In this document: positions 8,238 to 40,700 of the stretch, piece after piece | Layout of the letters: every line of letters begins with the position of its first letter | Position numbering within the stretch: position 1 is the stretch's first letter | Source of the DNA: an uncultured Myxococcales bacterium | GTDB taxonomy: Bacteria > Myxococcota_A > Polyangia > Palsa-1104 > JAEUJZ01 | Direction: 5' to 3' | NCBI GenBank assembly: GCA_937868485.1 | Contig: CALMML010000160.1 | Span: forward strand, 1-45,190 | DNA length: 45,190 nt | Position numbers and translations under genes: made by a program | The notes under the pieces: model-generated | Databases searched by the model: none | Seen by the model: only the letters and a program-made list of their open reading frames with translations | Told to the model about the DNA's origin: nothing

Positions 8238-8861
8238 TTACTTGGGCGGGTCGTACTGCTTGACCGACGGCTGCTTCTGACGCCACTCGTGACCGACGCC
8301 GCCTTGGGTCGCCACCGACGAGGTGCCACGCTTGAGCATGTCGATCTTGGTCTGAATCGCATCGCCTCGGAAGTCCACCGCCGGAGCATGAACACCCGAG
8401 TCCATTCGAATCGCGTCACACGGACACGCTTCGACGCACAGACCGCAGACCACGCAGCGCAGCTCGTCGATTTCGAAGATGCGCGGACGCTTTTCGTTCT
8501 TGTTGCCCGTCTCTTCGGGGACGATGGTGATGCAGTGCGCCGGACACACCGTCGGACACAGCATACATGCGACGCAGCGAACCTGACCGTCGTCGCGCAG
8601 CATCAGGCGGTGTAGACCTCGGTTGCGATCCGGGTACTTCACCTTTTCTTCCGGGTACTGAACCGTGACGGTGTACTTGCGCGAAAACAGGTTGGCGAAA
8701 AAGTGCTTCGCGGTCACACCAAGGCCACGAATGACCTCGGGGAGATAGACGCGCTGCTCAAGCGAGTCTGGCCGACCGACGACGCGAACACCGACCTTGC
8801 CGCGCGCTTTACCAGTCGACGAAGACGCTTCGTGTGATGAAGGAGCGTGATGCGTTGACAT
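8238..8861 (-). CDS. nuoI: NADH-quinone oxidoreductase subunit I
   Basis: The 207-residue peripheral-arm subunit of complex I carries clusters N6a and N6b that pass electrons to NuoB. Two ferredoxin motifs are visible: CVACMLCPTVCPAHC and CVVCGLCVEACPCDAI. Each has the C-x2-C-x2-C-x3-C pattern, and the second has one extra Cys. The N-terminus has a Ser/Thr/Lys-rich stretch before the conserved YPEEKVKYPDRNRGLHRL segment. It follows nuoH with a 3-bp gap. Confidence 0.96.
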   Translation of the reverse strand: MSTHHAPSSHEASSSTGKARGKVGVRVVGRPDSLEQRVYLPEVIRGLGVTAKHFFANLFSRKYTVTVQYPEEKVKYPDRNRGLHRLMLRDDGQVRCVACMLCPTVCPAHCITIVPEETGNKNEKRPRIFEIDELRCVVCGLCVEACPCDAIRMDSGVHAPAVDFRGDAIQTKIDMLKRGTSSVATQGGVGHEWRQKQPSVKQYDPPK

Positions 8862-8864
8862 GGC

Positions 8865-9995
<1,131 letters not shown>

Positions 9996-10008
9996 CGCAT
10001 CCCCTCAA

Positions 10009-11820
10009 TTAACCGCGCGAGTTGGCGAAGCGCAGCTGCACCGGCAGGAACTCTTTGCCCCATTCCGCCGAAGCAAACCCTGCTGCCACAACCTGAGCCG
10101 GGTCCGCGCCCACAGGCAGCGACGACGAAACCACGGACACCATCTGCAAGAAGGCCTGTCGGGCCGACACTTGCCACTTTTCGCCCGACGCCAGGTTGGC
10201 CTTCTTCGCGATCTGGCTGATCAGCTCCAGGTGCGAGCGCGCATCACCTTGTGGCGCAACCGACTTCCGCAGCCGCTGAACCAGGTTCTTGTTGTTGGTA
10301 AACGAGCCATCCACTTCAGCCCAGGCCGCCGCCGGCAGCTGAACGTGAGCCCGTCGCAGCAGCGCCGAGTCCGACACCGCCTGACAGATGAACAGTTCCA
10401 GTCCGTCGACAATCGGTGCGGTATCCGCCAGCGCTTGCTCCGCGAGCGGCAGATCGGCGCCAACCATCCACAGACCTTTGAGCTTGCCCGCCTTCAGATC
10501 CGCGAGCAGCGCACCAGCATCCGACGCACCAGCGCCAGCAAACAGCGTCGCACCAGCCGTATTCGGGTTGGTATCGGCACTGCGCAGGATCTTGTCGGCC
10601 CGCTCCGGCTTCGACGCAGTTCCCGTCACGTAGGAACGAATGTTGGCACCGCGCGCGATCAGCTTCTGAGCAACCTGCGACAGCGCAAACAGCGCTTCAT
10701 TCGTCGTCTGTGCGGAATAGACCAGACCAATCGACGCACCGCTGCTGGCCAGCTTTTCGAGCCGCTCCGCCGCGAACGTCACCGCCTTATCGAGGCTGGT
10801 GATCTGTGCAGGCTGTCCCCGACCGCCACCGATGCGCGCCGAGGTCAGCCGCTTGTGACGAACATCTTTGTAAGTAAAGCGGCCTTCGTCGCACATCCAG
10901 TACTTGTTGACCTGGAGGTTTTCCCGAGGCACAAGCCGCCAAATTTCGCCTTGCGCGTGATGCACTTCGACGTTACAGCCCGTCGCACAGCCAGGACACA
11001 CCGACGGAGTCGTAAACAGCTCCCACGCCCGCATCGTGAAGCGGAAGTCTTTGCTGGTCAGCGCACCCACCGGACAGACATCCACGGTGTTGATCGAGTA
11101 CGGATTGTCGAGCTTGTGACCCGGCGCCACCGTGAGCTGCTCACGGTCACCACGCCATGCCATCGTCAGCTGCTTTTCGCCCGCCACTTCGTCACACACG
11201 CGGATGCAGCGGGTGCACAGAATGCAGCGCTCCGCGTCGAGGACGATGTGCGGACCCAGATCCTGCATCTTCGGCTTGTGGACCTTCGGGATCGACGACC
11301 GCGAGCCCTCATGATCCCAGTCCTGATACTGCTTTTGCAGCGTGCACTCGCCCGCCTTGTCGCAGATCGGACAGTCAACCGGGTGATTGACCAGCGTAAA
11401 TTCCAGGATTTGCCGACGGATCGACAGCACGCGCGGGGTCGCGGTGTTCACTTCCATCTTGTCGGCGATCGGCGTAAAGCAGGCCGGAACCAGCTTCGGC
11501 TGACCCACCACTTCGACGAGACACTGCCGACAGACCGCAGGCGAGCTGAGTCCAGGGTGATAGCAGAAGTAGCTTACGTCCACGCCGTTGGCGAGGCAGA
11601 CCTCAAGCAGGTTGGCACCCTTTTTGGCCTGAACATCACGACCGTCGAGCTTGATGGTGACAAGCTCACTCGGCGGCGGCGCAGAGCTTGGGGCGGAACC
11701 AGCGGGTGCAGCACTGGCCGCAGCGGGCGGCGCAGCCGGGGGCGGTGACGGAGGAGTCGCCGTCTCGCGCAGGGCGGCTGCGATGCTCGACTTGATGGGT
11801 GAGGGAGGGGTCTCTGCCAT
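10009..11820 (-). CDS. nuoG: NADH-quinone oxidoreductase subunit G (short form)
   Basis: The 603-residue iron-sulfur subunit of complex I is much shorter than the ~900-residue enterobacterial protein, as is common outside gammaproteobacteria. A [2Fe-2S] domain (CYHPGLSSPAVCRQC, then ACF) begins near residue 85. It is followed by the His-Cys motif HPVDCPICDKAGEC, a [4Fe-4S] motif CILCTRCIRVC with a later CPVGAL, and an N7-type motif CPGCATGC. A degenerate molybdopterin-oxidoreductase-like domain completes the protein. The first ~50 residues are an unusual Pro/Ala/Ser extension. The gene follows nuoD directly (25-bp gap); nuoE and nuoF, often found between them, are absent. The start is ATG 11820 with a weak AGG nearby. 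Confidence 0.94.
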   Translation of the reverse strand: MAETPPSPIKSSIAAALRETATPPSPPPAAPPAAASAAPAGSAPSSAPPPSELVTIKLDGRDVQAKKGANLLEVCLANGVDVSYFCYHPGLSSPAVCRQCLVEVVGQPKLVPACFTPIADKMEVNTATPRVLSIRRQILEFTLVNHPVDCPICDKAGECTLQKQYQDWDHEGSRSSIPKVHKPKMQDLGPHIVLDAERCILCTRCIRVCDEVAGEKQLTMAWRGDREQLTVAPGHKLDNPYSINTVDVCPVGALTSKDFRFTMRAWELFTTPSVCPGCATGCNVEVHHAQGEIWRLVPRENLQVNKYWMCDEGRFTYKDVRHKRLTSARIGGGRGQPAQITSLDKAVTFAAERLEKLASSGASIGLVYSAQTTNEALFALSQVAQKLIARGANIRSYVTGTASKPERADKILRSADTNPNTAGATLFAGAGASDAGALLADLKAGKLKGLWMVGADLPLAEQALADTAPIVDGLELFICQAVSDSALLRRAHVQLPAAAWAEVDGSFTNNKNLVQRLRKSVAPQGDARSHLELISQIAKKANLASGEKWQVSARQAFLQMVSVVSSSLPVGADPAQVVAAGFASAEWGKEFLPVQLRFANSRG

Positions 11821-11845
11821 GACCTGTAAGTTGCCTATTCTCGGG

Positions 11846-13195
11846 TTAGCGGTCGCACTCGCCGCCGATCATGTTGATCATGCCGAACGTGGGAATGATG
11901 TCGGCGATACCTGCTCCCAGGATCAGCTTCGACATCGACTGCGTGGCGATGAAGCTGGGAGAGCGAACGTGACAGCGGTACGGACGTCCCGTGCCGTCGG
12001 AAACGATGTAAAAACCAAGCTCGCCGTTGCCGCCTTCGGTGTACGAGTACACCTCACCGGCGGGAACCTTGATGCCATCGATGATCAGCTTGAAGTGGCC
12101 GATCATGCTCTCGATGGTGTTGTAGACGGCGTTCTTCGCGGGCATCGCCACGCGCGGATCGTCGAGCAGCACCGGACCTGCCGGGATCTGCGTCATCGCC
12201 TGATCCAGAATGCGCATCGACTGCCGAATCTCTTCGAGACGAACCGCGAATCGATCGTAGTTGTCACCGACGGAACCGACCGGAACATCAAACTCAAAGC
12301 GATCGTAGACGAGATACGGATGATCCTTGCGAACGTCATACGGAACGCCCGTCGAACGCAGGCACGGACCCGTCCAGCCGAGCCCGATCGCATCTTCTGC
12401 CGAGATCGCAGCCACGCCGTCCATTCGGTCGCGGAAGATGCGGTTCTTGACGAGCAAGCTCTCGCACTCGGTGAGCACCGACGTGCTCTTGTGCAGCGTC
12501 GCGCGCAGCTTGTCGATGAAGTGTTCCGGCAGATCCTGCGAGACGCCACCAATTCGCACATACGAGTGCGTCAGACGAGCGCCCGTCAGCTCTTCGAGAA
12601 GCTCCCACAGCCACTCGCGGACTTTGATCATCCACAAGAACGGCGTAAAGCCACCGACTTCCATCGCCGACGCGCCCAGACACGTCAGGTGGTCGGTGAT
12701 GCGCGAGATCTCGCCGACGATGACGCGAATGTACTGCGCGCGCTCCGGCAAGCGGTCGACGATGCCGATTAGCTTCTCGACGGCCAGCGCAAAGCCCACG
12801 TTGTTCAGCAGCGGAGAGACGTAGTTCAGACGATCGGTATACGGAAAGACCTGCGTATACGTCGCGTGCTCGGCTTCTTTTTCGAAGCAGCGATGCAGAT
12901 ACCCAACCTGCACATCCGAGTCGCGCACCGTCTCACCATCGATGGTCAGAACGATGCGCACGGTGCCGTGGGTCGCCGGGTGAGACGGACCCATGTTGAT
13001 CGTCATCGGCTCCGTCGGAAGCTCGATGTCTTCCACTTCTTCCAGTTCCGCCGCGTTCAGCTTCGACATCAGGTCGGGCGGCACCTTCGGACGCGTGCTC
13101 AGCCCATGAACACCACCCGACGCAATTTCGTCGGGAGTCGGCATGCCAAAGGCAAGCTTCTTCATTCCAGTCTTGCTCTGTGTCGTCGTCGACAT
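11846..13195 (-). CDS. nuoD: NADH-quinone oxidoreductase subunit D
   Basis: The 449-residue 49-kDa-type subunit forms the quinone-binding pocket with NuoB. Diagnostic blocks are MTINMGPSHPATHGTVRI (about residues 63-80), GYLHRCFEKEAEH, and SFIATQSMSKLILGAGIADIIPTFGMINMIGGECDR at the C-terminus. The family's usual DPSMGEVDR ending is here GGECDR. About 60 residues precede the conserved core, somewhat longer than typical. The stop-start gap from nuoC is 13 bp. Identity is firm. Confidence 0.96.
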   Translation of the reverse strand: MSTTTQSKTGMKKLAFGMPTPDEIASGGVHGLSTRPKVPPDLMSKLNAAELEEVEDIELPTEPMTINMGPSHPATHGTVRIVLTIDGETVRDSDVQVGYLHRCFEKEAEHATYTQVFPYTDRLNYVSPLLNNVGFALAVEKLIGIVDRLPERAQYIRVIVGEISRITDHLTCLGASAMEVGGFTPFLWMIKVREWLWELLEELTGARLTHSYVRIGGVSQDLPEHFIDKLRATLHKSTSVLTECESLLVKNRIFRDRMDGVAAISAEDAIGLGWTGPCLRSTGVPYDVRKDHPYLVYDRFEFDVPVGSVGDNYDRFAVRLEEIRQSMRILDQAMTQIPAGPVLLDDPRVAMPAKNAVYNTIESMIGHFKLIIDGIKVPAGEVYSYTEGGNGELGFYIVSDGTGRPYRCHVRSPSFIATQSMSKLILGAGIADIIPTFGMINMIGGECDR

Positions 13196-13208
13196 GTCTT
13201 TGGCTCCG

Positions 13209-13703
13209 TTAGCTCAGCGAGTAGTCGCGGCGAATGAGCGGCTGCCGTTGCTCTTTGGGATAGTCCTTGCGCAGCGGATGGCCCACGAACTCTTCGTACA
13301 TGAGGATGCGACGAAGATCCGGGTGATCCGTGAACTTGATCCCGAACATGTCGTAGACCTCACGCTCTTGCCAGTTCGCCGTCGGCCACAGATCGCACAC
13401 GGTCGCAACCTCAGCGCTTGGACCGCCTTCTTCTTCGTGAACCGGCGCTTTGATGCGCAGTCGGTTGCCCGTCGCCATCGATCGCAGGTGATACACCACT
13501 TCAAATCGAGGCTCACGACCGAAGTAGTCCACGGCGGTCACGCTCACCAGGAAGTCAAACCCGGCGGAGTCGCGCAGATAGCGCATCACGTCTTTTAGCG
13601 CAGTGGCAGTCACCACAGCCGTGTCATCGCCGTGGTTGCTGTGCGACGAAACGATTGCCTGGGGAAACTGCGCCACCAGCTTGTCGAGATCAGCTTTGCT
13701 CAT
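13209..13703 (-). CDS. nuoC: NADH-quinone oxidoreductase subunit C
   Basis: The 164-residue 30-kDa-type subunit is separate from NuoD rather than fused. The hallmark is WQEREVYDMFGIKFTDHPDLRRILM with VGHPLRKDYP, matching the family signature. It binds beside NuoD in the connecting module of the peripheral arm. It lies 48 bp after nuoB on the same strand. Confidence 0.96.
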   Translation of the reverse strand: MSKADLDKLVAQFPQAIVSSHSNHGDDTAVVTATALKDVMRYLRDSAGFDFLVSVTAVDYFGREPRFEVVYHLRSMATGNRLRIKAPVHEEEGGPSAEVATVCDLWPTANWQEREVYDMFGIKFTDHPDLRRILMYEEFVGHPLRKDYPKEQRQPLIRRDYSLS

Positions 13704-13751
13704 TGCAAAATTCTTCCCTTGCTGCTTCCACGCTCACGGAAAAAGGCGGCG

Positions 13752-14279
13752 CTACGCCACCACCGGCAGGCGCTTCCGACCATCGGTGGACTGAGCGGCC
13801 AGCTCCACTTCTTTGCGATCGCGGCGCTGAACCCAGGTCGTGGCTTCGGCAATCTTCTTCTGGAGGAGAATGAGCCCGTCGAGAACTTGCTCGGGGCGAG
13901 GCGGACAGCCTGGAATGTAGACATCCACCGGGACGACCTGATCGCAGCCGGGGACGGTGTTGTAGTTCTGGTAGAAACCACCCGTCGAAGCACACACACC
14001 GAATGCGATGACGTACTTCGGTTCGGCCATCTGCATCCAGATGCGATGCAGCACCGGAGCTTGACGCTCGGTGATGGTTCCGACGACGAACAGCAGGTCC
14101 GCCTGGCGCGGCGAAAAGCGCGGGAACTCGGCACCGAAGCGAGCGATGTCGTACTTCGAGCCAGCAGTGGCCATGTACTCCATGCCACAGCAAGCGGTGA
14201 CAAATGGATAGGTAAACAGCGAGTACTTGCGCGCCCAGTTGAGGGCATCGTCAAGGCGGGTGGTGTAGCTCTCGGCCAT
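13752..14279 (-). CDS. nuoB: NADH-quinone oxidoreductase subunit B
   Basis: The 175-residue PSST-type subunit carries cluster N2, which donates electrons to quinone. Ligand motifs are TACCGMEYM (paired Cys), FGVCASTGG and VYIPGCPPRPE, matching the family. It begins MAESYTTRLDDALNWARKYS at ATG 14279, 21 bp after nuoA. Its C-terminus has an extra basic tail (GRKRLPVVA). Confidence 0.97.
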   Translation of the reverse strand: MAESYTTRLDDALNWARKYSLFTYPFVTACCGMEYMATAGSKYDIARFGAEFPRFSPRQADLLFVVGTITERQAPVLHRIWMQMAEPKYVIAFGVCASTGGFYQNYNTVPGCDQVVPVDVYIPGCPPRPEQVLDGLILLQKKIAEATTWVQRRDRKEVELAAQSTDGRKRLPVVA

Positions 14280-14300
14280 GTTTTTTTCCTGACTCCCCGG

Positions 14301-14714
14301 TTAGCCCCAGCCGATGGCGCGCTTACGCCATACATAGGCCAGAGCAACCACCAGCGTGCTCATAAAGACCAGCATCTCGACGAAACCGAAGGCAGTGACG
14401 GTGCCAAGGCACTCACCGTGGATGACCGTTCCAAGGCAGGAAAGCCGTCGGAAGATCGCAGCCCACGGATACAAAAACGCCGCTTCGATGTCGAAGATGA
14501 GGAAGAGGAGCGCCACTTGGTAGAACTTGACGGAAAAGCGGACGCGGGGACTGCCAATTGGTTCCGAACCGCACTCGAAAGGAGAGAGCTTTTCGGCGTT
14601 CTCGCGCTTTGGGCCCAAAAACATGGCGAGACCCAAGAACACGCACGAAAAAGCGATTCCAAACAGAATCGCCACGAGCGTGGGGCCATAGTCAGTTGCT
14701 TGTTCGACGGACAT
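14301..14714 (-). CDS. nuoA: NADH-quinone oxidoreductase subunit A
   Basis: The 137-residue membrane subunit has three hydrophobic helices. The conserved loop SPFECGSEPIGSPRVRFSVKFY includes the reactive Cys of the quinone-linked TMH1-2 loop. FDIEAAFLYPWA supplies the family's DxE motif. It is first in the operon and has a good Shine-Dalgarno (GAGG, six bases before ATG) and a strong promoter just upstream. Confidence 0.96.
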   Translation of the reverse strand: MSVEQATDYGPTLVAILFGIAFSCVFLGLAMFLGPKRENAEKLSPFECGSEPIGSPRVRFSVKFYQVALLFLIFDIEAAFLYPWAAIFRRLSCLGTVIHGECLGTVTAFGFVEMLVFMSTLVVALAYVWRKRAIGWG

Positions 14715-15937: not shown

Positions 15938-15971
15938 CAATACCGTGACATCGGAGCGGCAACATGACGGC

Positions 15972-16931
15972 ATGCAGAGCAAAGCGAAACGACCCGCTCC
16001 GTCCGTCGAGATCATCGACACGCCCCGAGAGCGTCCCCCGCGTCCCTTTCAGATCGACAAGCTGACGAGCATTCCGTTTTTCTTGGTCCACATCGCGGCC
16101 ATTGCCTCCGCGATTTGGATCGGAGCAACGACGACCGACATCATCGTCTGCGTCGCGCTCTACTACATTCGAATGTTCGGCATCACGGCGGGCTTTCATC
16201 GCTACTTTTCGCACCGCGCCTACAAGACGTCGCGCTGGTTCCAGTTTGTGCTGGCCGTCATCGGCGGTGCATCGATGCAAAAAGGCGTGCTGTGGTGGGC
16301 CGCGCATCATCGCAACCATCACAAGTTCAGCGACATGTCCGAGGACATTCACTCGCCCAAGCAAGACGGCTTTTACTGGTCGCACGTCGGCTGGATTCTG
16401 TCGAACGACTACGATCACACCGAGTGGGATCGCATCCGTGACTTTGCCAAGTATCCCGAGCTGCGCTGGCTGAATCGCTGGCACTGGGCGCCCGCACTCG
16501 TCGGTGGAGCCATCTTGTACGCAATCGGCGGCATCCACTGGTTTGTGTGGGGCGGTCTGGTCAGCAGTGTTCTACTGTGGCACGGCACCTTCTTTATCAA
16601 CTCGCTGGCGCACGTCTGGGGCAGCCGTCGCTATCCGACCACCGACACGAGCCGCAACAACTTCTGGCTGGCGCTCATCACGATGGGCGAAGGCTGGCAC
16701 AACAACCACCACTACTACCAGAGCACCGCCAACCAAGGCTTCTTCTGGTGGGAAGTCGACTGTAGCTACTACATCCTCAAGATGCTGTCGTGGGTCGGCG
16801 TGGTGTGGGATCTGCGGACTCCACCAGCGCACATCCTGGCTGGCAAAGAGCCGGTGAGCGACGCGGTAAGCGAAGTTGTCAGCGAAGCCATCAGCCCACC
16901 GGTTCCGCCCGCCGCCCTCCCAACCGCCTAG
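15972..16931 (+). CDS. Membrane fatty acyl-CoA desaturase (delta-9 type)
   Basis: The 319-residue membrane di-iron enzyme introduces a double bond into fatty acyl chains, probably acyl-CoA. The three histidine boxes are present: HRYFSHR (76-82), HRNHH (113-117) and HNNHH (243-247). Hydrophobic helices flank them, as in stearoyl-CoA 9-desaturases. The phrase AHVWGSRRYPTTDTSRNN is typical of the group. No cytochrome b5 or ferredoxin domain is fused, so an external electron donor is needed. The start is uncertain: ATG 15972 is used; GTG 15945 in frame would add nine residues, and neither has a well-spaced Shine-Dalgarno. It is 45 bp upstream of the peroxidase gene. Confidence 0.92.
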   Translation: MQSKAKRPAPSVEIIDTPRERPPRPFQIDKLTSIPFFLVHIAAIASAIWIGATTTDIIVCVALYYIRMFGITAGFHRYFSHRAYKTSRWFQFVLAVIGGASMQKGVLWWAAHHRNHHKFSDMSEDIHSPKQDGFYWSHVGWILSNDYDHTEWDRIRDFAKYPELRWLNRWHWAPALVGGAILYAIGGIHWFVWGGLVSSVLLWHGTFFINSLAHVWGSRRYPTTDTSRNNFWLALITMGEGWHNNHHYYQSTANQGFFWWEVDCSYYILKMLSWVGVVWDLRTPPAHILAGKEPVSDAVSEVVSEAISPPVPPAALPTA

Positions 16932-16976
16932 CCTGCCCGTGGTACACTTGGGCCCTCTTTATTCTGGAGAGCGCTC

Positions 16977-17690
16977 ATGAGCAAGCAGTCCGAGCCCGCC
17001 GCATCAGGCTGGCAGCCCGCCCAGCCCGGAGAACAGCGCAGTCCCTGCCCGGCCCTGAACTCACTGGCCAACGGTGGCCACATTCCCCGCAGCGGCATCG
17101 CCACGCGCGCGCAGCTGGTGTCCGCGATGGTCAACCGACTCGGCGTGTCCACCGCGCTGGCCGACAAGCTGGCCGTCGCTGCAATGGAAAAGTTTGGTAA
17201 GCCCGGCGAAGGCAGCGAGCAAGTGCTGCATCTTCAAGATCTGTGCGAGCACGGCAAGCTCGAACACGACGCCAGCCTGACCCGCCAAGACACCCACGTT
17301 GGAGACAACGCCAAGGTCGATCCAGCGCTCGTCGAGCAGCTGCTGTCGCTCAGCAAGAACGGTCAGACGCTGACACTGGATGATCTGGCAACGGCTCATC
17401 AGATTCGCATGCAGCAGTCGGCCCAAGGCGGTCATCAGGTTCCGTCCAAAGCTGGCTTCGTTGGCACCGTCGAGGCATCGCTGCTCTATAACGTGCTGTC
17501 ACGCGGTCAAAACGGCATCAGCCTGGCCGACGCCCGCGAGTTTCTGCTGCACGAGCGCATTCCCGAAGGTCTGACGGGACGAGACATCTCGATGCCACAG
17601 GTCGCACGACGCGCGATCACGATTGCGCTCAAAGGCAACCTGCCGATCTGTGACGCAGCCCGTCGCGCCAAAGACGCGCTCAAGAAGTAA
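16977..17690 (+). CDS. Peroxidase_2 (chloroperoxidase/unspecific peroxygenase-like) heme-thiolate protein
   Basis: The 237-residue protein matches the fungal heme-thiolate peroxidase family (Pfam Peroxidase_2). The signature PCPALNSLANGGHIPRSG (residues 23-40) contains the axial heme Cys (C24). KLEHDASLTRQD supplies the EHD magnesium/acid-base motif (96-98) of the short form. E166 in GTVEASLLYN is a candidate catalytic Glu. Length fits the short (~26-29 kDa) peroxygenases. No signal peptide is visible, unlike most fungal members, so it is probably cytoplasmic. A GGAG at good spacing precedes the ATG. It lies between the desaturase and a MacB-type permease, same strand, with 45- and 36-bp gaps. 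The likely chemistry is H2O2-dependent oxidation of lipids or organics; this is inferred. Confidence 0.85.
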   Translation: MSKQSEPAASGWQPAQPGEQRSPCPALNSLANGGHIPRSGIATRAQLVSAMVNRLGVSTALADKLAVAAMEKFGKPGEGSEQVLHLQDLCEHGKLEHDASLTRQDTHVGDNAKVDPALVEQLLSLSKNGQTLTLDDLATAHQIRMQQSAQGGHQVPSKAGFVGTVEASLLYNVLSRGQNGISLADAREFLLHERIPEGLTGRDISMPQVARRAITIALKGNLPICDAARRAKDALKK

Positions 17691-17726: not shown

Positions 17727-18932
17727 ATGCCGCTTCTTGAACTGCTTCTGACGGCGCTCGATACGCTTCGTGCCAACAAAGTCCGCGCGGTGCTGACCAC
17801 GCTGGGCGTCATCATCGGTGTGCTGTCGGTGATCTTGCTCGTCTCTCTAGGGGAAGGAGCCCGCAGCTATCTCGGCGACACCTTCGCTGGGCTCGGTTCC
17901 AACTTGCTTCAAATCCAACCTGGTCGACGAGAAACCAAGGGATTTGGCAGCCCTTCGCTCGGCACGGTCTACAAGATCACCCGCGAAGACGAACAGATCT
18001 TGGCCCGTCGAGCCAGCACCATCGATGGCGTCAGCGGTGTCGTCACCGGCGGCGGAACCGTTCGCTACGTCAATCGTCGCCGCGACACGCTCATCCTCGG
18101 CGTCAGCAGCCGCTTCACCGAAATCCGCCAGCTTCAGGTCGAACAAGGTCGCTTTTTGTCCGACGAGGACATTGATGCCCGACGTCGCTTCGTTGTCCTC
18201 GGGCGCACGGTCCTTTTGGAGCTATTTGGCGACGAAAATCCGCTCGGCAAAGTGATCAAAGTCGCCGACGGAGAGTTCCGCGTCATCGGGCTGATGGAAC
18301 ACAAAGGTCAGACGCTCGGCTTCGATCTCGACGACATCGTCTTCATTCCCGTCACCACTGCGATGGACTTATTCGCCGTCGAGGGACTTTCCCACGTCCT
18401 CGCCCGCGCCCGCGACAAAGTCAGCGTCGAGCCCGCCATCGAAGAAGTCACCGAGCTGCTCCGTCGTCGTCACAACGATCAAGTCGACTTCACCGTGATC
18501 TCTCAAGACGACATGCTCTCGACGGTAAACGGCATCATGAACACGTTTTCGATGGTGCTCATTGCGATCGCCAGCATCTCGCTTGTCGTCGGAGGCATCG
18601 GCATCGCCAACATCATGCTGGTGTCGGTCCGCGAGCGAACCCGTGAAATCGGCGTCCGTCGCGCCGTCGGAGCCAAGAAGCGTCACGTCCTGCTCCAGTT
18701 TCTGCTCGAGTCGATCGTGATCTCGCTGCTCGGAGGCATCATCGGGCTGCTGCTCGGTGCGCTGATCATTACGATGGGACGACTGCTGGTTCCAGGGCTG
18801 CCCGTGCGACTGTCCTTTGACATCGTGCTGATCGCGGTTGGCTTCTCTGCGCTCGTCGGAATCTTATCCGGCGTGGTTCCCGCTCAGCGTGCAGCCAGCC
18901 TCGATCCGGTCGAAGCGCTACGCTACGAATAG
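17727..18932 (+). CDS. MacB-type ABC transporter permease (FtsX family)
   Basis: The 401-residue permease has the MacB/LolC-type layout: one N-terminal transmembrane helix (about 18-40), a ~230-residue periplasmic MacB_PCD domain, and three C-terminal helices with the FtsX block ISLVVGGIGIANIMLVSVRERTREIGVRRAVGA. It lacks an ATPase domain, and no ATP-binding subunit gene is adjacent. It would work with a separate MacB-like ATPase in mechanotransmission, moving lipids or small molecules at the periplasm. MacA and TolC homologues lie 1.4 kb away on the other strand. The ATG at 17727 has no clear Shine-Dalgarno. The stop is one base from the convergent atpI stop. Confidence 0.9.
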   Translation: MPLLELLLTALDTLRANKVRAVLTTLGVIIGVLSVILLVSLGEGARSYLGDTFAGLGSNLLQIQPGRRETKGFGSPSLGTVYKITREDEQILARRASTIDGVSGVVTGGGTVRYVNRRRDTLILGVSSRFTEIRQLQVEQGRFLSDEDIDARRRFVVLGRTVLLELFGDENPLGKVIKVADGEFRVIGLMEHKGQTLGFDLDDIVFIPVTTAMDLFAVEGLSHVLARARDKVSVEPAIEEVTELLRRRHNDQVDFTVISQDDMLSTVNGIMNTFSMVLIAIASISLVVGGIGIANIMLVSVRERTREIGVRRAVGAKKRHVLLQFLLESIVISLLGGIIGLLLGALIITMGRLLVPGLPVRLSFDIVLIAVGFSALVGILSGVVPAQRAASLDPVEALRYE

Positions 18933-20331: not shown

Positions 20332-21615
20332 TCACATACCGACGCGTCTCATGCCGCCGCCACCACCGGGAGCCCCAGCGGGTCGCGGCACGCCCATCGG
20401 ACTACTTGGACCCGAGGAACCCGACGAAGTCTTCTGCGACTCGATGACGATGACCTGATCTTCGCTGACGCCTTCGGTGATTTCTGTGTTGAGTCCGTCG
20501 CTGATGCCAACGCTCACGAAGACCGGACGAATGCCTTCACCGTCGGGAACAAACAGCGGCGTCTTGCTCTTGCCTTCGCCTTTGTTGCGTCGCTCGCGAT
20601 TTTCGGGCTTGGCTCCGTCGCTGCCCGAGCGTTCCATCCGAGGCTTAAATCGCAGCGCAGCGTTTGGCACAAGCAGCACCTCTTTTCGGTCCGCGACCAC
20701 GACCCTGACGTTCGCAGTCATGCCCGGTCGCAGCAGCAGCTCCGCGTTGTCCACATCGAGCACCACCACGTACGTCACGACGTTTTGCACCGTCTGCGCA
20801 GCGTTGCGAATCTGCGAGACCTTGGCGCGGAAGCGCTTGCCGCGAAACGAGTCAACCGTAAACTCAGCGCTCGCTCCGACGGTCAGATAGCCAATGTCCG
20901 CTTCATCGACACTGGCCAAGACCTGCATCTTGCGCAGATCGCCAGCGATCTGAAACAGGTTCGGCGCTTGAAACGACGCCACCACCGCTTGTCCCAGCTC
21001 GACGTTGCGAGAGATCACCACACCATCGACCGGCGACAAGATCACCGAGTTTTTCAGGTCCAGCCGCGCTTTGTCGAGGCTCGCTTGCGCCAGCTTCACA
21101 CCCGCTTCTGCCGCTTGAACGCTCGCTGCCGTGCTCTGTTCCGTCGCCACAGCCGTGTCACGGTCCGCCGCCGAGATGTAGTTTTTCGCAAACAGCGCCC
21201 GCGCTCGCTCCGCCACCCGCGCCGCGTTTTGAGCATCTGCTTTCGTGCGAATCAGGTTCGCTTGCGCCGACGCCACGTTCGCTTCTTGGCTCTTCACTGC
21301 CGTCTGAAACAGCGCCGGATCCAGCTCCACCAAGATCTGCCCTTGCTTCACCGTGTCGTTGTAGTCGGCATGCAGCTTGTACACGATGCCCGACACCTGC
21401 GAGCCCACCGGCGACAGCAGCAGCGGCTGAATCGTTCCCGTCGCGCTTACGACCTGCGTGACATCGCCGCGCGTCACCTTCGCCGTCACCCAGCGAGGCG
21501 CGTCGCTCTTACGGAAAAACAGCCGATACGCACCGATACCGAGCCCGATCACAACGACCGCAAGACCCAGCCACATCCACAGCTTCCGCCGAGACGCTGA
21601 CGTTTGTTCGCTCAT
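20332..21615 (-). CDS. MacA/RND-type periplasmic adaptor (membrane fusion protein)
   Basis: The 427-residue adaptor links an inner-membrane transporter to TolC. One N-terminal transmembrane helix lies at about 12-31. It is followed by the barrel/lipoyl half GTIQPLLLSPVGSQVSGIVYKLHADYNDTVKQGQILVELD, a long alpha-hairpin with heptad-like Ala/Gln, the second lipoyl half SPVDGVVISRNVELGQAV, and a beta-barrel. The C-terminus is an odd Gly/Pro/Ser tail ending GGGGGMRRVGM. It overlaps tolC by 4 bp. Its inner-membrane partner is not adjacent on this strand; a MacB-type permease is 1.4 kb away on the other strand. Confidence 0.92.
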   Translation of the reverse strand: MSEQTSASRRKLWMWLGLAVVVIGLGIGAYRLFFRKSDAPRWVTAKVTRGDVTQVVSATGTIQPLLLSPVGSQVSGIVYKLHADYNDTVKQGQILVELDPALFQTAVKSQEANVASAQANLIRTKADAQNAARVAERARALFAKNYISAADRDTAVATEQSTAASVQAAEAGVKLAQASLDKARLDLKNSVILSPVDGVVISRNVELGQAVVASFQAPNLFQIAGDLRKMQVLASVDEADIGYLTVGASAEFTVDSFRGKRFRAKVSQIRNAAQTVQNVVTYVVVLDVDNAELLLRPGMTANVRVVVADRKEVLLVPNAALRFKPRMERSGSDGAKPENRERRNKGEGKSKTPLFVPDGEGIRPVFVSVGISDGLNTEITEGVSEDQVIVIESQKTSSGSSGPSSPMGVPRPAGAPGGGGGMRRVGM

Positions 21616-23051
21616 GGCGAGGTTCCTCCTCGAGGCTCGGGCTCTTTGATCAGTTCCCCAAGATAAAAACGCAGGCTCGCCCGCTGCTGCGCCAGCGCAA
21701 AGTCCGCCTGAACTTGCTGGGCCTGCGCCTGCATCGCCGACACCTGCGCGTCGCCCAGCTCAATCGCATTGCCAACACCTGCGCGATACCGACCGTCTGC
21801 CATTTCAAGCTGCTTTTTGGCCTGATTCGCGAGCGCCACCGACGCTTCCACCGTCAGCCACGCCGTCAACACCTGCTGAAGCGCTTGCTGAAGCTGACTG
21901 CGCACCGACAGACGAAGCTGCTGCAGGTTTGCCCGCGCCAGCGACAGCTGAGCCTGCGCATCCCGAACCGCATACACCGTCGACAATCCCGTCAGAACCG
22001 GCCAGTTCAGCCCGAGCGTTCCCGTCACCAGCAGACCCGGTAGCGACTGCTGCGTGGTGACATCCAGCCCGCTGATTCCACCGATGGTTCCGCTGCTCAG
22101 CGAAGCACTTCCCCCAATGGACAGCGTCGGCAGATAATCCGCACGCGCCGCTTTGAGCTGTGCTTCCGCCGCACGAACCCGCGACTGAAGCGACTGATAA
22201 TCGGGACGATTCAAGAGCGCCGCATCGACCGTCTCATCGGGGATCGTCGCCACCGTCTCGGCACTCGCACCGCTCAGCAGCGATTCCAGCGCATGCGGAG
22301 GCGGGAGCACCGACGACATCGGACGCTTTTGCCAGCGCGACCAGTCGCTTTCCGGCAGACCCAGCGACTGCAAAAACTGTGTTCGCGCAACTTGCACATT
22401 GCCCTGCGCTTGCAGCACCTGCAGCCGAGACTGCGCCACCGCCGTCTGAGCAATCAGCACATCGATCTGCGGCTTGGTCCCAATCTTGAAAAAGCTCTCG
22501 GCCTGTTTCAGTCGTCGAAGCTGCTGCTGCTGGTTTTCGCTCGCGACGGACAGCAGCGCTTCCGCTTGCAGCACCGCATAAAAACCGCTCATCGCCCCGA
22601 GGACGACCTGTGACTGAACGTTACGCTCGTCGGTCTGAGCCGCTTGGGCACTGGCTTGCGCGGCGGAAATGCGACCTCCGACGCGACCGAAGTCGTAGAT
22701 CATCTGGTTTAGCGCCAGCTGACCACTCGATCGCAGCGTCGAGACGGCGCTCTGACCGTTCATTCCGCCAATTTGGTAGCTGTAGTCGCCACGCACCGTT
22801 CCCGACAGCGTCAGCTGCGGCAGCCACGAGCTTCTCGCCGTCCCCACCCGCGCTTCCGCCGACAGCTTGCTCTGACGAGCCGCTTCCGCCGTCGGACTAT
22901 GAGCCAGCGCAACTTGAATCGCTTCGCCAAGTCCAATCGGAGCCGTCGTCGCTGCATCCGCCACAGCTTGCGCGCTTACCGACGAGACTGTTCCCGCCGT
23001 AAGCGCAACCGAACAGACGACCGCCCATCGAGCCCAGCCGACGCGTTTCAT
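21612..23051 (-). CDS. TolC family outer-membrane efflux protein
   Basis: The 479-residue outer-membrane channel begins with a Sec signal peptide (hydrophobic AVVCSVALTAGTVSSVSAQA). The mature protein shows the internally repeated TolC/OEP pattern of long coiled-coil helices, e.g. ALNQMIYDFGRVGGRISAAQASAQAA and DYQSLQSRVRAAEAQLKAARADYLPTLSIGGS. It would form a trimeric tunnel with the downstream adaptor. Its ATG overlaps the end of the isoprenoid synthase by 4 bp, and its own end overlaps macA by 4 bp. Confidence 0.93.
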   Translation of the reverse strand: MKRVGWARWAVVCSVALTAGTVSSVSAQAVADAATTAPIGLGEAIQVALAHSPTAEAARQSKLSAEARVGTARSSWLPQLTLSGTVRGDYSYQIGGMNGQSAVSTLRSSGQLALNQMIYDFGRVGGRISAAQASAQAAQTDERNVQSQVVLGAMSGFYAVLQAEALLSVASENQQQQLRRLKQAESFFKIGTKPQIDVLIAQTAVAQSRLQVLQAQGNVQVARTQFLQSLGLPESDWSRWQKRPMSSVLPPPHALESLLSGASAETVATIPDETVDAALLNRPDYQSLQSRVRAAEAQLKAARADYLPTLSIGGSASLSSGTIGGISGLDVTTQQSLPGLLVTGTLGLNWPVLTGLSTVYAVRDAQAQLSLARANLQQLRLSVRSQLQQALQQVLTAWLTVEASVALANQAKKQLEMADGRYRAGVGNAIELGDAQVSAMQAQAQQVQADFALAQQRASLRFYLGELIKEPEPRGGTSP

Positions 23052-24163
23052 GACCGCACCTCAAGTGAACGCAGCGCACGCACTTTCCGTTCCTGAAACT
23101 GCGAATCTAACCATCGATCTGAGCCCAGCGCTCGTCCAAGCAGCGTCACCGCCGACGATCCCGCCAGCAGCGAATACACCGACTGCCGGGTCACTTTCAC
23201 CGGCTGATCCGGCGTCAGCAGCGGCGATCCCACATCACCGAGCAGCGCCAGCGTATCGACCGCCAGCCACAGCGGCCAAATGCACGCGAGCCGCAGCCGC
23301 ACCTGCTGTGTCGGAATCGCCAGCACATACGGCCAGGCTTCGTCGCAGCGAGCCATTCCGAGCGCCAGCAGCTCGCCGGTCAAGTGCCGCATCGCTCGCG
23401 CTTCCGTCAGATCGACGGGTGGCCGCTGGGTGAGAGCAAACAAGCGCTCCGACGACAGACCGTGCTTGGTAAGAAGCGGCTCTGGCACATAACAGCGTCC
23501 GATCCGCAGATCCGACGCCATGTCTCGCACCACGTTGGTCAGCTGCAGCGCTTTTCCGAGCGCCACGCCTTGCGAAAGCCGCTCCGGTTCCGCCAAGTGA
23601 GACAGGCCCGGAATGTGCGCGGCACAGATCTCTGTCCAGAACTCTCCGACGCAGCCCGCCGCGTAATAGGTGTATTCGTCCAGATCTTCGAGCGAGCGCA
23701 GCGTCACAACCTGATCCGCCGAAGTCACGCTCCCAGCCGCTGGAAATCGTCGCAGATCCACCTGCATCCCCGAGATGAGCTGGTGCAGCACCTTGGCCAT
23801 CAACGCGCGATCGCCATCGGACGACTGCGCAAGCAGTGTCAGGCAGTCTCCGAGCACGGAAAGCAGCGTCCGTTCACTCGATGGAAGCGAGCTCACAGCT
23901 CCGTCGGACAGTGCGCTTGTCAGCGAGCGATGAAGCTGATCCGTCGCGGCTCGATCGCCCGCACAGGCCCGATCCAGCTCGGTCAGCAGATCAAGCCGCA
24001 CGGACGCAGGCAGCAGGTCGGTATCCGCAATCGTGTCCGCCGCACGCGCCAGCAGATAAGACAGCCCAATCTGAGCGGCCACTGCCTCGGGAAGCACACG
24101 GACACTGAAGTAGAAAGAACGAGAGACGCGCTCAAGCAGCGCGGTAAGGGAAGGCGAAAGCAC
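23048..24163 (-). CDS. Squalene/phytoene synthase family protein
   Basis: The 371-residue head-to-head prenyl synthase joins two prenyl diphosphates (FPP to squalene, or GGPP to phytoene). The first Asp motif is DTIAD (43-47) within SRSFYFSVRVLPEAV...LSYLLARAADTIAD. The YTYYAAGCVGEFW block is near 165-176, and the second Asp motif is RDMASDLRIGRCYVP (D214, D218). Both metal-binding motifs are intact. Squalene synthase is favoured by the overall pattern, but phytoene synthase is not excluded. The start is GTG 24163. It is flanked tightly by a lipoprotein gene (15 bp) and tolC (4-bp overlap). Confidence 0.88.
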   Translation of the reverse strand: MLSPSLTALLERVSRSFYFSVRVLPEAVAAQIGLSYLLARAADTIADTDLLPASVRLDLLTELDRACAGDRAATDQLHRSLTSALSDGAVSSLPSSERTLLSVLGDCLTLLAQSSDGDRALMAKVLHQLISGMQVDLRRFPAAGSVTSADQVVTLRSLEDLDEYTYYAAGCVGEFWTEICAAHIPGLSHLAEPERLSQGVALGKALQLTNVVRDMASDLRIGRCYVPEPLLTKHGLSSERLFALTQRPPVDLTEARAMRHLTGELLALGMARCDEAWPYVLAIPTQQVRLRLACIWPLWLAVDTLALLGDVGSPLLTPDQPVKVTRQSVYSLLAGSSAVTLLGRALGSDRWLDSQFQERKVRALRSLEVRS

Positions 24164-35761: not shown

Positions 35762-37768
35762 GTGACAGCGAAAGCTTGCGCCTGGCACCTACGTTTGGGA
35801 AGGACAGCTCTCCTTGGTTTGGGAGCCACACTTCTCCTGTCTTCGATCGGCTGCTCCGAGCGACAACCGCTCGCGCCGGGCTGCCGTCCATGGTCTGGCT
35901 CTGATACCGACACGGAGCCACCGTCGCACTGCTTGTTTTTCCCTGGCAGCATCGCCATGGATCCACTCGGAGACGTGCTGTACGCGACCAATACAAACGC
36001 CGACCTGAGCTTCGGTGGTTCGACGGTGGTCGCGGTGGACATCCTTCGACATGCTCGCGCTGTCGAGTGCTTCCGTCGCTTCGGTAGCGATGCCGGTGTC
36101 GTCGGAGACAGCTTCTGTGGTCAGGTCTCGTGTGCAGACTCTGGCGCGGCACTGGGCGTCAGTGCAACGCTTGAAGAAACCGAGGGCAAAGAAGCGGGCC
36201 AGCGCGTCGCCGACTACGATCGCTGCTATTGCCAGCGCGACATCGACGATCCGTCCGTCGTAAGCTGCGAGTCGCAGCGCTTTGTGATGGCCGATCAGAC
36301 GGTCAAGATCGGCTTCTTCCCCGGAGAGCTACAGCTTCTCGCCGAAGATCCGCCCAACTGGCTGGCCCTTCCTGAGCGCGCCGCTCTTCGTCGAGGACTG
36401 CTCATCGCGGTACGAGGAGATCCCTCGATCACCTTGGTGGAATCCGCGCGGCCTCTCCGTCGGGGCAGGTCCGGCGGCGAATCGCCAGAGCTTCGCCTAA
36501 GCTGCGATACAACCAATCGACTCAGCGACGCAGATGTTGCTGCACCGCTGGCCGCGCATCCAGCCGGAACCCGCTATGCGCTGTCGCAGTGCAGCGGTTC
36601 CAATCGAGTCAACCGAACGCCCGACGACGTATGGGTCAATCCCGACGATGAATCGCAAGGCACGCGGCCTCGGTTCGAGCTGCCCGCCGAGCCCATGAGC
36701 ATCTACGTCGATCGAGGCTGCATCGAGCCAGGCTTCCGGCACGATCGCGGAACCTTTTTGTCGGATCGCAACCAAAACCCGACGGGCAAGCCTCCTTGTT
36801 ACAAGGTGGAAGGCGCAGCGGTTCGGACGGGAACGTACTACCAATACCTGGTTTCGAGTCACTTACCGACGGGACAAGCCTCTGCGTTCGATCTGGGCAA
36901 GAGCCCGACCGATCTGCAAGCGCCGGTTCTTTCCGACGTGAGCGGATCGCTTGTCTCGACCACCGACGGACGAACTGGAGCGTTTGCGGTGGCGCCACGC
37001 AAGCTGGGCGACCTCACGCAGTCGTGGTTCGTGACCTCGAAGCTGACCAGCACTCTGTCGACGTTCCGACTCGGCGTGGGCGCAAAGATTGTGCCTGGAC
37101 TGCTCTTTGGCGTGTCCAGCCAGTTCACCAACGCGACGCAGGATGTGCGCTCGATCGTCTTTGAGCCAAGTGGCGATCGCGCCTATCTGGCCCTGTTCCA
37201 GCCCCCCGCGCTGGCGGTGATGGACACGAGACTACGCGGCGGTGGCAGCAACATTCCGGTCAATCAGGTCACGTCGGTGGTGAACTTGTGCGCAGGTCCA
37301 TCTCGCCAAGTCATCGCCAAGGTACCGCGTTACAGCATGGGTCAAGTCGTCATGACGACGAGAATCTTTGTAACGTGCTATCTGTCCGGCCAAGTCGCTG
37401 AAGTCGATCCCGATACCGGAGAGCTGGTGGGAACGCTACAAGCCGGTCGCGGACCGCTCAGCATTGCGCTGAACTTCGGGACGGACGAAACAGCGACGGC
37501 GCTTGGCTATCCGGGCGCAGTGGACCCTTGTGCTGATCCGCTTCGCTCGAACAGCGACGCGGCCAAGCTGGGCGTAACCTGTCCAGGCACGGGCAACGAC
37601 ATTCGGCCTCGACCGCTGGGTCCAGGCCAGTCGCAGCTTCCGCCTCGGGCTTACGTCAGCAACTACCTCGATAACACCATCTCGGTACTGGATCTGGACC
37701 CACGCAGCCCGAGCTATCGGCGCATGGTGGCCCGGATCGGATTACCGTCTCCCAAGCAGGTGCAATAG
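35762..37768 (+). CDS. Large lipoprotein, beta-propeller-like, function unknown
   Basis: The 668-residue protein has a lipoprotein signal with lipobox SSIGC (C31). The mature part is rich in beta strands with paired Cys. Phrases such as PSGDRAYLALFQPPALAVMDTRLRGG and YVSNYLDNTISVLDLDP recall YVTN/NHL-type propeller blades. It is presumably on the cell surface or in the periplasm. The start is GTG 35762 with no obvious Shine-Dalgarno. The next gene begins two bases after its stop. No named family is recognised. Confidence 0.75.
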   Translation: MTAKACAWHLRLGRTALLGLGATLLLSSIGCSERQPLAPGCRPWSGSDTDTEPPSHCLFFPGSIAMDPLGDVLYATNTNADLSFGGSTVVAVDILRHARAVECFRRFGSDAGVVGDSFCGQVSCADSGAALGVSATLEETEGKEAGQRVADYDRCYCQRDIDDPSVVSCESQRFVMADQTVKIGFFPGELQLLAEDPPNWLALPERAALRRGLLIAVRGDPSITLVESARPLRRGRSGGESPELRLSCDTTNRLSDADVAAPLAAHPAGTRYALSQCSGSNRVNRTPDDVWVNPDDESQGTRPRFELPAEPMSIYVDRGCIEPGFRHDRGTFLSDRNQNPTGKPPCYKVEGAAVRTGTYYQYLVSSHLPTGQASAFDLGKSPTDLQAPVLSDVSGSLVSTTDGRTGAFAVAPRKLGDLTQSWFVTSKLTSTLSTFRLGVGAKIVPGLLFGVSSQFTNATQDVRSIVFEPSGDRAYLALFQPPALAVMDTRLRGGGSNIPVNQVTSVVNLCAGPSRQVIAKVPRYSMGQVVMTTRIFVTCYLSGQVAEVDPDTGELVGTLQAGRGPLSIALNFGTDETATALGYPGAVDPCADPLRSNSDAAKLGVTCPGTGNDIRPRPLGPGQSQLPPRAYVSNYLDNTISVLDLDPRSPSYRRMVARIGLPSPKQVQ

Positions 37769-37770
37769 CT

Positions 37771-40700
37771 GTGCGTCCTCTGTCTTGCTCTTTGGTATCG
37801 ACGCGGCTCGCCTGGGGTGTCGTCCTCGGGCTGCTTGCCTCGGCGAGTTGCAACACCCAGACCATCACAACCCCGACGAGATCGCTCGATCGTCCCAGTG
37901 ATCTTGACCTGTTTTGCGTCGAGTTCGAGACGAAAGAAGGCGGCTGCATTCCTTCGGGCGATCCGACGAGCGATCCGCAGGCCTATCTCGATGCGTACTG
38001 CGGAGCGACGGAGTGGCGAAACTACACGCCCGTGGCGACGGTTCTCCCGCGTTCAGCATGCGAAGAAGGCAAGCGGCGTGTTCGTCGTGATGACTATTAT
38101 CAAAAGGTTCGTCAGGCAGCGACGCTGCTCGGACGCGATCCGAACACACCCTGCTGCGCTGCCGATGATACCGCCTGCACAGCCGTCGCTCCGACGTGCA
38201 TGTATCGCACCGAGCTAGCGCTCGTTTCGAATACGGTTCGCGGGGAAATTTCCGTCGCGGACACCTCTCTGCAAGCGCCTGGACTATCGACCTACGGACG
38301 ACTGGCCAGCCTCCATGGCGGAAAGCCTGGCTTTGGCTTCTTGCCAGCGGGAAGCCTGCCTCTCCACGTTCGCGCGACGGTTCCAGTTCCGCCGGGAGAA
38401 GCGCCGACGACGCTCGACGGTCAGTTTGCGTGGGCCGTCACCAGCAATGCCGGATCGTGCGATCTATCGGTCGTACGACTTCAGCCCGTCGCCAACTTGG
38501 TTGCGCGTGCGCCCGCGTGCGATGACAGCGGTCAGACTTGTTCGACACGCGACTGCGACGGTGAGTCATGCCCCAAGAGCGTTCAGCCATGGATTCCGTC
38601 GGGCGCCGATAAGAAATACGTCGCTGCTCGTCCCGGCTGGATCGAGATTGCGCCATGGTCGCGTGCCAATCAGCGTCGCGTCGTCGTTGCATTCCCAACG
38701 TGTGGAGTGGTTGCCGTCGTCGATGCCACCGATGGAGCCAGCGCCGGTCGCATCTGGGAAGCCATCGCGTTTGATCAAAAAGATGCCCGCAACGCGCCCA
38801 AGGTCCTGACGGCAAGTGAAATCGAACAGCTCAAGTGTCCGTCGGACTGTGGTGGAGACACTTCTCCGCTTCCTCCCGACGCGATGGACATTCCGCCAAG
38901 CGGAGCGATGAAGTCGGCCAGCTATCCAGCGTCGGTGGCCATCGATACCTACGGGTCTCGCCTGCTGATCAGCGATGCGGTTGGGTCCACCGTCACCGTC
39001 GTCGACTTTGACAACACAAAAGCAGACGGTGCGCACCTGCTGACTTCGGTTCGACGGGTTGCACTCGACTTCGAGGTTCGCAACGACGGACGCAGCGCCC
39101 AGCTTGGGCTGGATGCCATCCGTGTCACACCACGAACACCCGCCGGACAGTTTGCTTATGTCGTCGCCAAAGACAGCAGCGTGCGGGTCATCGACCTCGA
39201 TCGCGAAGTGGAATGTGAGACCAATCCCGACGCGCGCTACCTGCTCAGCCAAGCCGGTGCGTCGCTGCGCGTGCTGCCAGATGACCTGATTGAGTCGAAC
39301 CTGCGTCGCCTGTCGTGTCTGCCCGTCGATAAGACCAAGACGCCACGATCACCGCTGGCGACGGGACCGGGAATCTGGCTGCCCAACGCCAGCTTGCCGC
39401 GCGATGTCGGTCTCACCCACGTCGACACCATTCCTTGCACATCGTCCAATCCCAATGACTGTGCATTTTCGGCCAATCCCGACGAGTCTTCCTACGTTCC
39501 AGCCAGTGCTGCGCTGTGGGTTGGCGACTTCGCGTGGATCTTGGGTGGTGGAGGCTCAGTACTCGGTGTTCAGATCGCGGATCTGTGTCCGAGCCCGTCG
39601 TATCGCGCCTGCTTCCCCGAGTTTGCAGCGCTGCGTCGCTTGTCGCTCCTGCATACGCGCTCGCAAGCCCTGTCGAATCCCGAGCAGCTCGGCCTGCCCT
39701 CGCACCCGCAAGCGCTGACGGTGGGTCCACAGGATCGATTGGGTAACTCGCGACGCGTACTGTCTCGCTTCGATGAGCGATCGGATACCGGACCGAACGG
39801 CCCGCGTCCCGACAGCGACACATCAGGACTGCCGATCATCACGACGAGACTGGGTGGATCTCTCGTCAGCTATTACACAACGATCTCTGAAGCTGCGAGC
39901 AATCAGACACGACGCCGGCTGCTTCTACCGATGATGACGCCGTATTACTACCTGCCCGTTGATCCCGTCTGCGACGTAGCGATTGCAGAGCAAGCGCTGA
40001 CGCTGACGAGCCCGGATCAGAACATTCCGGCAGAGCCGACGCGCCGACCCGTGACAACGATGCACTTTACCGATCCGGCGGCGACTTCTTCGGAGTCATG
40101 GACGCTCGGATGGGAAGCGGTGCTCAACGGACTGGGACGCTCGTCGGGACTCCTACAGTCGGACGGAACGCTCATCGATCTGAATGGTCTTTACTGCAAC
40201 CGTGGCGTCGAGCCCGGTGACAAGCTGTGGCTCACTGGCTGCTACAGCAACTCCGACTGCCCGAGCGGAACCCTCTGTAAACGCGAACAGACGCAGGTCA
40301 GCTCTCCCGGCCTGTGCATGACGCGGGACCAAGAGACCCAGTGTCGCGCGCTGTCCGAGCGACTGCTCACCGATAGCAGCAACGACACCGCGTGGGCGGC
40401 AAGCTGGCTCCGTCGCTACCTAGTCACCAAAGCAGAGCAGCAGATCACCGCAACACCGCCGCTGGCTGATGTAACCGACCGCTTGACCATCGAAGAGCTC
40501 CCCGAGCCGGAGTTCCTGATTGAGCGTCAGAGCTGCACGATGGCTGACCTAGGCAAGGCATGCAGCGATCCGCTGTTCACCCAGCCGGTCAAGCCGAGAA
40601 CGGGCGCCCCCGGTGTGTCCTGCCGAGTCACAGGCCGCGACAGCATCGGAAAACCCAGCACAAGCTGCATCCGTCAGTGTGAGTTCAACACCGACTGCGG

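Follow-up and report, generated by a model that had tools for sequence, protein, structure and literature searches.

Unspecific peroxygenases (UPOs), which are heme-thiolate enzymes, are highly valued as catalysts of oxygenation and are difficult to produce in bacteria. The fungal enzymes are typically secreted with a signal peptide, and reviews assign the family to fungi and oomycetes (PMC4420034, PMC8772875). The catalytic apparatus of two short (family I) members, MroUPO from Marasmius rotula and CviUPO from Collariella virescens, has been described at the residue level. The heme ligand is Cys17 in MroUPO and Cys19 in CviUPO. In MroUPO, Mg2+ is bound by Glu85, the carbonyl of His86, Ser89, and a heme propionate, and CviUPO uses the same residues. 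H2O2 is acted on by His86 and Glu157 in MroUPO, and by His90 and Glu162 in CviUPO (PMC9137552). Both enzymes oxidise oleic acid, which CviUPO epoxidises (PMC7082571).

Bacterial UPOs, termed BUPOs, were reported by Lopez-Tavera et al. in June 2026. They were found by structure, share less than 20% identity with the fungal UPOs, are mostly unrecognised by InterPro, and often carry a signal peptide or a lipoprotein signal. They lack the Glu-x-Asp-x-Ser Mg site, contain no Mg by ICP-MS, and have a second heme-access tunnel, with the propionate exposed to solvent; one of them, AgeBUPO, belongs to the myxobacterium Archangium gephyra (PMC13394420). The CYP152 fatty-acid peroxygenases are likewise bacterial, heme-thiolate, and H2O2-driven (summarised in PMC13394420). 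They have a P450 fold, are unrelated in sequence to the protein described below, and possess neither the PCP motif nor the distal acid-base pair.

In this study, we analysed a 45,190-nucleotide stretch of DNA from an uncultured Myxococcales bacterium, hereafter called the window. An initial annotation, made from the letters alone, had identified one of its gene products as a short-form homologue of the fungal heme-thiolate peroxidases/peroxygenases. The translation agrees with its reading of a 237-residue protein with a PCP motif at Cys24 and an EHD motif at residues 96–98, and the desaturase and permease genes that it had placed on either side are indeed there, separated from the gene by short gaps. 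The gene and the codons of its key motifs are as follows.

16977..17690, + strand: UPO-type gene, a short heme-thiolate peroxygenase homologue of the Peroxidase_2 family (Pfam, PDB sequence matches, Foldseek, residue mapping, and dN/dS)
17043..17054, + strand: codons of S22-P23-C24-P25, the PCP heme-ligand motif, the same in all four bacterial and all of the aligned fungal sequences
17262..17276, + strand: codons of E96-H97-D98-A99-S100, the Mg2+/heme-propionate motif, aligned without gaps with CviUPO
17472..17474, + strand: codon of E166, the probable distal acid-base Glu, equivalent to Glu157 of MroUPO and Glu162 of CviUPO by alignment

Peroxidase_2 (PF01328) is the single family detected in the protein by hmmscan (E=3.8e-43). 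The match scores 148.6 bits, where the curated cut-off of the family is 26.9, and covers positions 3–182 of the 186 in the profile, so that the Peroxidase_2 search proposed with the annotation yielded a full-domain match. Residues 1–109 alone match the profile at 3.2e-28, and residues 110–237 alone at 1.7e-8. Since both parts match separately, the similarity is more than a coincidence of motifs. Among the solved structures, the best sequence match is CviUPO (7zcl, E=1.4e-19), followed by AaeUPO from Agrocybe aegerita and then MroUPO (E=8.9e-16), and the significant matches consist entirely of UPOs and chloroperoxidases. The last of them is the Caldariomyces fumago chloroperoxidase (1cpo, E=7.6e-10), which shares the superfamily and the PCP ligand with our protein; it is more distant than the short UPOs, with about 95 residues aligned. 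The C-terminal 116 residues alone found no relevant match in the PDB search, while the PF01328 profile does match that part. The identity to the fungal UPOs is 28–38% over residues 18–147, in the N-terminal half, and the similarity of the C-terminal half is weak. This bacterial-to-fungal identity is at about the level seen between the short and long fungal UPOs (33–42%). On sequence grounds, these results argue strongly that the protein is a heme-thiolate peroxygenase homologue of the short fungal type, as the annotation had suggested.

We also compared the predicted structure with the PDB. The AlphaFold2 model, computed from four homologous sequences and without heme, has a pLDDT of 66.5 and a pTM of 0.59, and residues 1–28, including C24, have pLDDT values below 50. 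All 33 significant Foldseek matches of this model are UPO/CPO structures, with 7zcl as the best (E=7.9e-9), and the TM-scores to the short UPOs are 0.57–0.60, for a model of moderate to low confidence. The structural comparison that the annotation had called for thus supports the assignment of the predicted fold to the UPO/CPO class.

The catalytic residues of the fungal enzymes have counterparts in the bacterial protein. The E96-H97-D98-A99-S100 segment also aligns without gaps with E85-H86-D87-x-S89 of MroUPO. Ser100 and E166, neither of which the annotation had listed, are invariant in the four bacterial homologues. E166 is the sole acidic residue of its helix and is off by one column in the MAFFT alignment; the equivalent Glu in the Byssovorax homologue, described below, is matched by HMMER with a Glu of 9tm7, a fungal UPO. 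The C24–H97 spacing is 73, as compared to 69 in MroUPO and 71 in CviUPO, and the C24–E166 spacing is 142, as compared to 140 and 143, respectively (fungal numbering from PMC9137552). The roles of H97 and E166 are assigned by alignment, with E166 as the probable distal acid-base residue. The distal positions that vary among the fungal UPOs correspond to L61, L65, L95, and L169 (roles from PMC9137552), which by alignment would form an aliphatic lining. The protein therefore resembles the family I UPOs (CviUPO, 7zcl; MroUPO, 5fuj/7zbp; HspUPO, 7o1r) in its full Peroxidase_2 domain, PCP motif, EHD-A-S motif, distal Glu, and short length. It differs from them in these channel residues and in its C-terminal half. 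Its bacterial host, the absence of a signal peptide, and an NGG or NHG sequence after LA within the genus are features of its own.

The annotation had noted that a signal peptide is missing, and we found no hydrophobic segment near the N-terminus, where the maximum 19-residue Kyte-Doolittle mean is 0.2. Lacking a signal peptide, the protein is assigned to the cytosol; we treat this departure from the secreted fungal UPOs as a matter of location, and not of catalysis. By analogy with the fungal enzymes, heme binding, Mg binding, and peroxygenase chemistry would proceed in the following manner. In a cytosolic, family I-type UPO, Cys24 would ligate heme b, and Glu96, the carbonyl of His97, Ser100, and the heme propionate would bind Mg2+. 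The distal His97 and Glu166 would then cleave H2O2 heterolytically, producing a thiolate-ligated Compound I, which would insert oxygen into a C–H or C=C bond of a hydrophobic substrate or oxidise the substrate by one electron. Most likely, the enzyme is a peroxygenase of the cytosol that is driven by H2O2 and has small hydrophobic molecules as its substrates, perhaps including unsaturated fatty acyl chains. Such acyl substrates are plausible because CviUPO epoxidises oleic acid and the gene directly upstream encodes a desaturase. That the unsaturated acyl products of this desaturase actually serve as substrates is a tentative proposal, drawn from this gene context and the CviUPO chemistry; the Byssovorax homologue instead has a styrene-monooxygenase-like gene in its vicinity.

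Two other views of the protein were considered. It shares with the BUPOs a bacterial host, the PCP heme ligand, a distal acid-base residue, and the same fold, and AgeBUPO comes from a myxobacterium. However, the published description sets the BUPOs apart by their distance from the fungal UPOs, the failure of InterPro to recognise most of them, and the missing Mg site, while the present protein is detected by a plain Pfam search over the full domain and retains both the fungal level of identity and the whole Glu-x-Asp-x-Ser site. Membership in the BUPO family is therefore very improbable, and the identity to the fungal enzymes together with the intact Mg motif means that the protein is better filed with the fungal short UPOs. 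Its activity is less clear-cut, as it might be mainly a one-electron peroxidase of the catalase-like or chloroperoxidase-like type, which would remove cytosolic peroxide or halogenate rather than oxygenate a dedicated substrate. Peroxidase and halogenating activities are known among family members (PMC4420034), and the cytosolic location and the lack of conserved biosynthetic neighbours across the two bacterial lineages fit such a role. In contrast, EHD with a distal Glu is the short-UPO motif of enzymes that oxygenate well, and a gene this rare would be an odd choice for a housekeeping task performed by catalases. We regard this peroxidase role as unlikely, though worth keeping in mind, and consider it highly probable that the protein works in the bacterial cytosol as a true heme-thiolate peroxygenase, of the type of the short (family I) UPOs of fungi.

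How widely is the gene distributed among bacteria? Profile searches with Pfam covered the class, an even sample of the phylum, and control genomes. Of the 318 genomes searched in the class, four, from 2 of 152 genera, had a Peroxidase_2 match, in agreement with the rarity in bacteria that the annotation had claimed. In the phylum sample, 3 of 379 genomes had a match, all from the two genera already found positive, and none of the 14 control genomes had one. A peptide-pattern scan of 84,980 species genomes reported only the myxococcal copies, with patterns narrow enough that divergent members in other phyla would escape them. Two further species of the same genus carry the gene, with protein identities of 90% and 83%. 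The fourth homologue, 47–49% identical over its length, comes from a Byssovorax MAG, where bacterial genes surround it on a contig of 168 kb. In an unrooted, small tree of the four bacterial sequences and five fungal fragments, the bacterial four form one clade on a long stem, with a support of 100. Searches of plasmids and phages (tblastn) and a scan of viral contigs found no UPO homologue, and thus gave no sign of a mobile carrier.

This pattern is best explained by a rare acquisition of the UPO gene in two myxococcal lineages, at a time remote enough for any foreign codon signature to have disappeared: the gene's GC content (0.633), GC3 (0.739), and codon usage are in line with those of its neighbours. 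A fuller scenario, which we offer as speculative, is a clade of Mg-dependent, fungal-type UPOs in Myxococcota that is intracellular and derives from an old transfer between eukaryotes and bacteria, in either direction, with UPO catalysis adapted to the cytosol and possibly directed, in this genus, at desaturase-made fatty acyl chains.

The genes and the one sequence element next to the UPO gene that bear on its function are the following.

15945..16931, + strand: fatty-acid (acyl-CoA type) desaturase (PF00487, E=5.5e-19), listed as context, which does not imply joint action with the UPO
16944..16952, + strand: TG(G/A)TACACT, which may serve the UPO gene as an extended -10 element, kept in three species while the rest of the gap has diverged
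17727..18932, + strand: MacB/FtsX-type permease (PF12704 and PF02687), listed as context, from an MFP-ATPase-permease system that is split in this genome

The three genes are co-directional, with gaps of 45 nt between the desaturase and UPO genes and 36 nt between the UPO and permease genes. Both gaps contain short stretches conserved in the three species. TG(G/A)TACACT lies in the 45-nt gap and is possibly an extended -10 promoter element; a sigma-70 consensus scan, which requires a -35 element, does not report it. The short gaps allow the co-transcription of the desaturase, UPO, and permease genes, and the conserved -10-like motifs leave room for separate promoters. The surrounding order, Nuo genes–HEAT–desaturase–UPO–permease–Apt, is shared by all three species of the genus, each represented by a separate MAG. 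Within it, the AtpI-like and AtpC-like genes found between the permease and apt in two of the species are missing from the third (G002, L007 8132-8175).

This locus bears on two further readings, one concerning the origin of the gene and the other its purpose. Eukaryotic contamination might be suspected, as the family is otherwise fungal or oomycete and the genomes are metagenome assemblies, and the gene might also be dead. Nevertheless, the same locus between the Nuo and Apt genes recurs in the three MAGs with proteins 83–90% identical, introns are absent, the codon usage is bacterial, and the pairwise dN/dS of 0.10–0.15 indicates purifying selection. The synteny and the evidence of selection rule out both contamination and a pseudogene, and we give these readings practically no weight. 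As for purpose, the annotation had suggested that an oxidised lipid is made here and moved by the adjoining permease; the desaturase would make an unsaturated acyl chain, the UPO would epoxidise or hydroxylate it, and the permease would move the product. The close, co-directional arrangement preserved throughout the genus favours this pathway, as does the oxidation of oleic acid by CviUPO and MroUPO. Yet the neighbourhoods of relatives, which the annotation had proposed to check, speak against it. The desaturase–UPO–permease order is confined to one genus. Desaturase orthologues (51–64% identical) occur in all 13 order members searched, unlinked to any UPO, and permease orthologues (63–76% identical) occur in several order-level relatives, none with a UPO; in four relatives (G003, G004, G009, and G012), the desaturase and permease genes are on separate contigs. 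The permease has conserved partners of its own: in G004, its gene directly follows those of an MFP and an ATPase, as the third member of one efflux operon. In the genome studied here (G000), the closest matches to the MFP (51%) and ATPase (73%) of that operon are adjacent on contig C78, with no permease alongside. The Byssovorax homologue has wholly different neighbours, with no desaturase or permease nearby, and the -10-like motifs may serve separate promoters. We therefore consider the three-gene lipid pathway improbable. Most likely, the permease serves an efflux system whose remaining parts are encoded elsewhere, and its position beside the UPO gene is a rearrangement of this genus.

The efflux operon itself is whole in G004 and broken up in part of the family. 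Its MFP and ATPase genes lie at C78:7925-9849 in our genome, apart from the permease at 17727-18932, and a similar split is seen in G003. In the Byssovorax MAG (L005 7683-9062 and 9648-10358), the UPO homologue is preceded on its own strand by a styrene-monooxygenase-A-like gene, and a DUF378 gene of opposite orientation separates the two, so that two unrelated oxygenases are encoded near each other.

The enzyme confirmed here looks ordinary but is phylogenetically unusual: it adds a member to a known family from a domain of life in which that family was not expected. With its intact Mg site and its detection by a plain Pfam search, the gene provides a counter-example, a bacterial enzyme of the fungal type that would be natively cytosolic, and naturally suggests itself for production in E. 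coli. It also offers a test case for the movement of the family between domains of life, as the retention of all of the key catalytic residues makes the question of such a crossing testable.

Several other features of the window were observed. On the + strand at 35762-41979, two adjacent long open reading frames of 668 and 1402 aa, with no Pfam match, precede recR. On the - strand at 8238-14714, the complex I genes nuoA-B-C-D are followed immediately by nuoG-H-I; none of the three species has nuoE or nuoF between nuoD and nuoG. Finally, genes for a HlyD-type membrane-fusion protein, an outer-membrane efflux protein, and a squalene/phytoene synthase lie consecutively and nearly overlap on the - strand at 20332-24163, and the two other species share this order of the efflux pair and the isoprenoid synthase.
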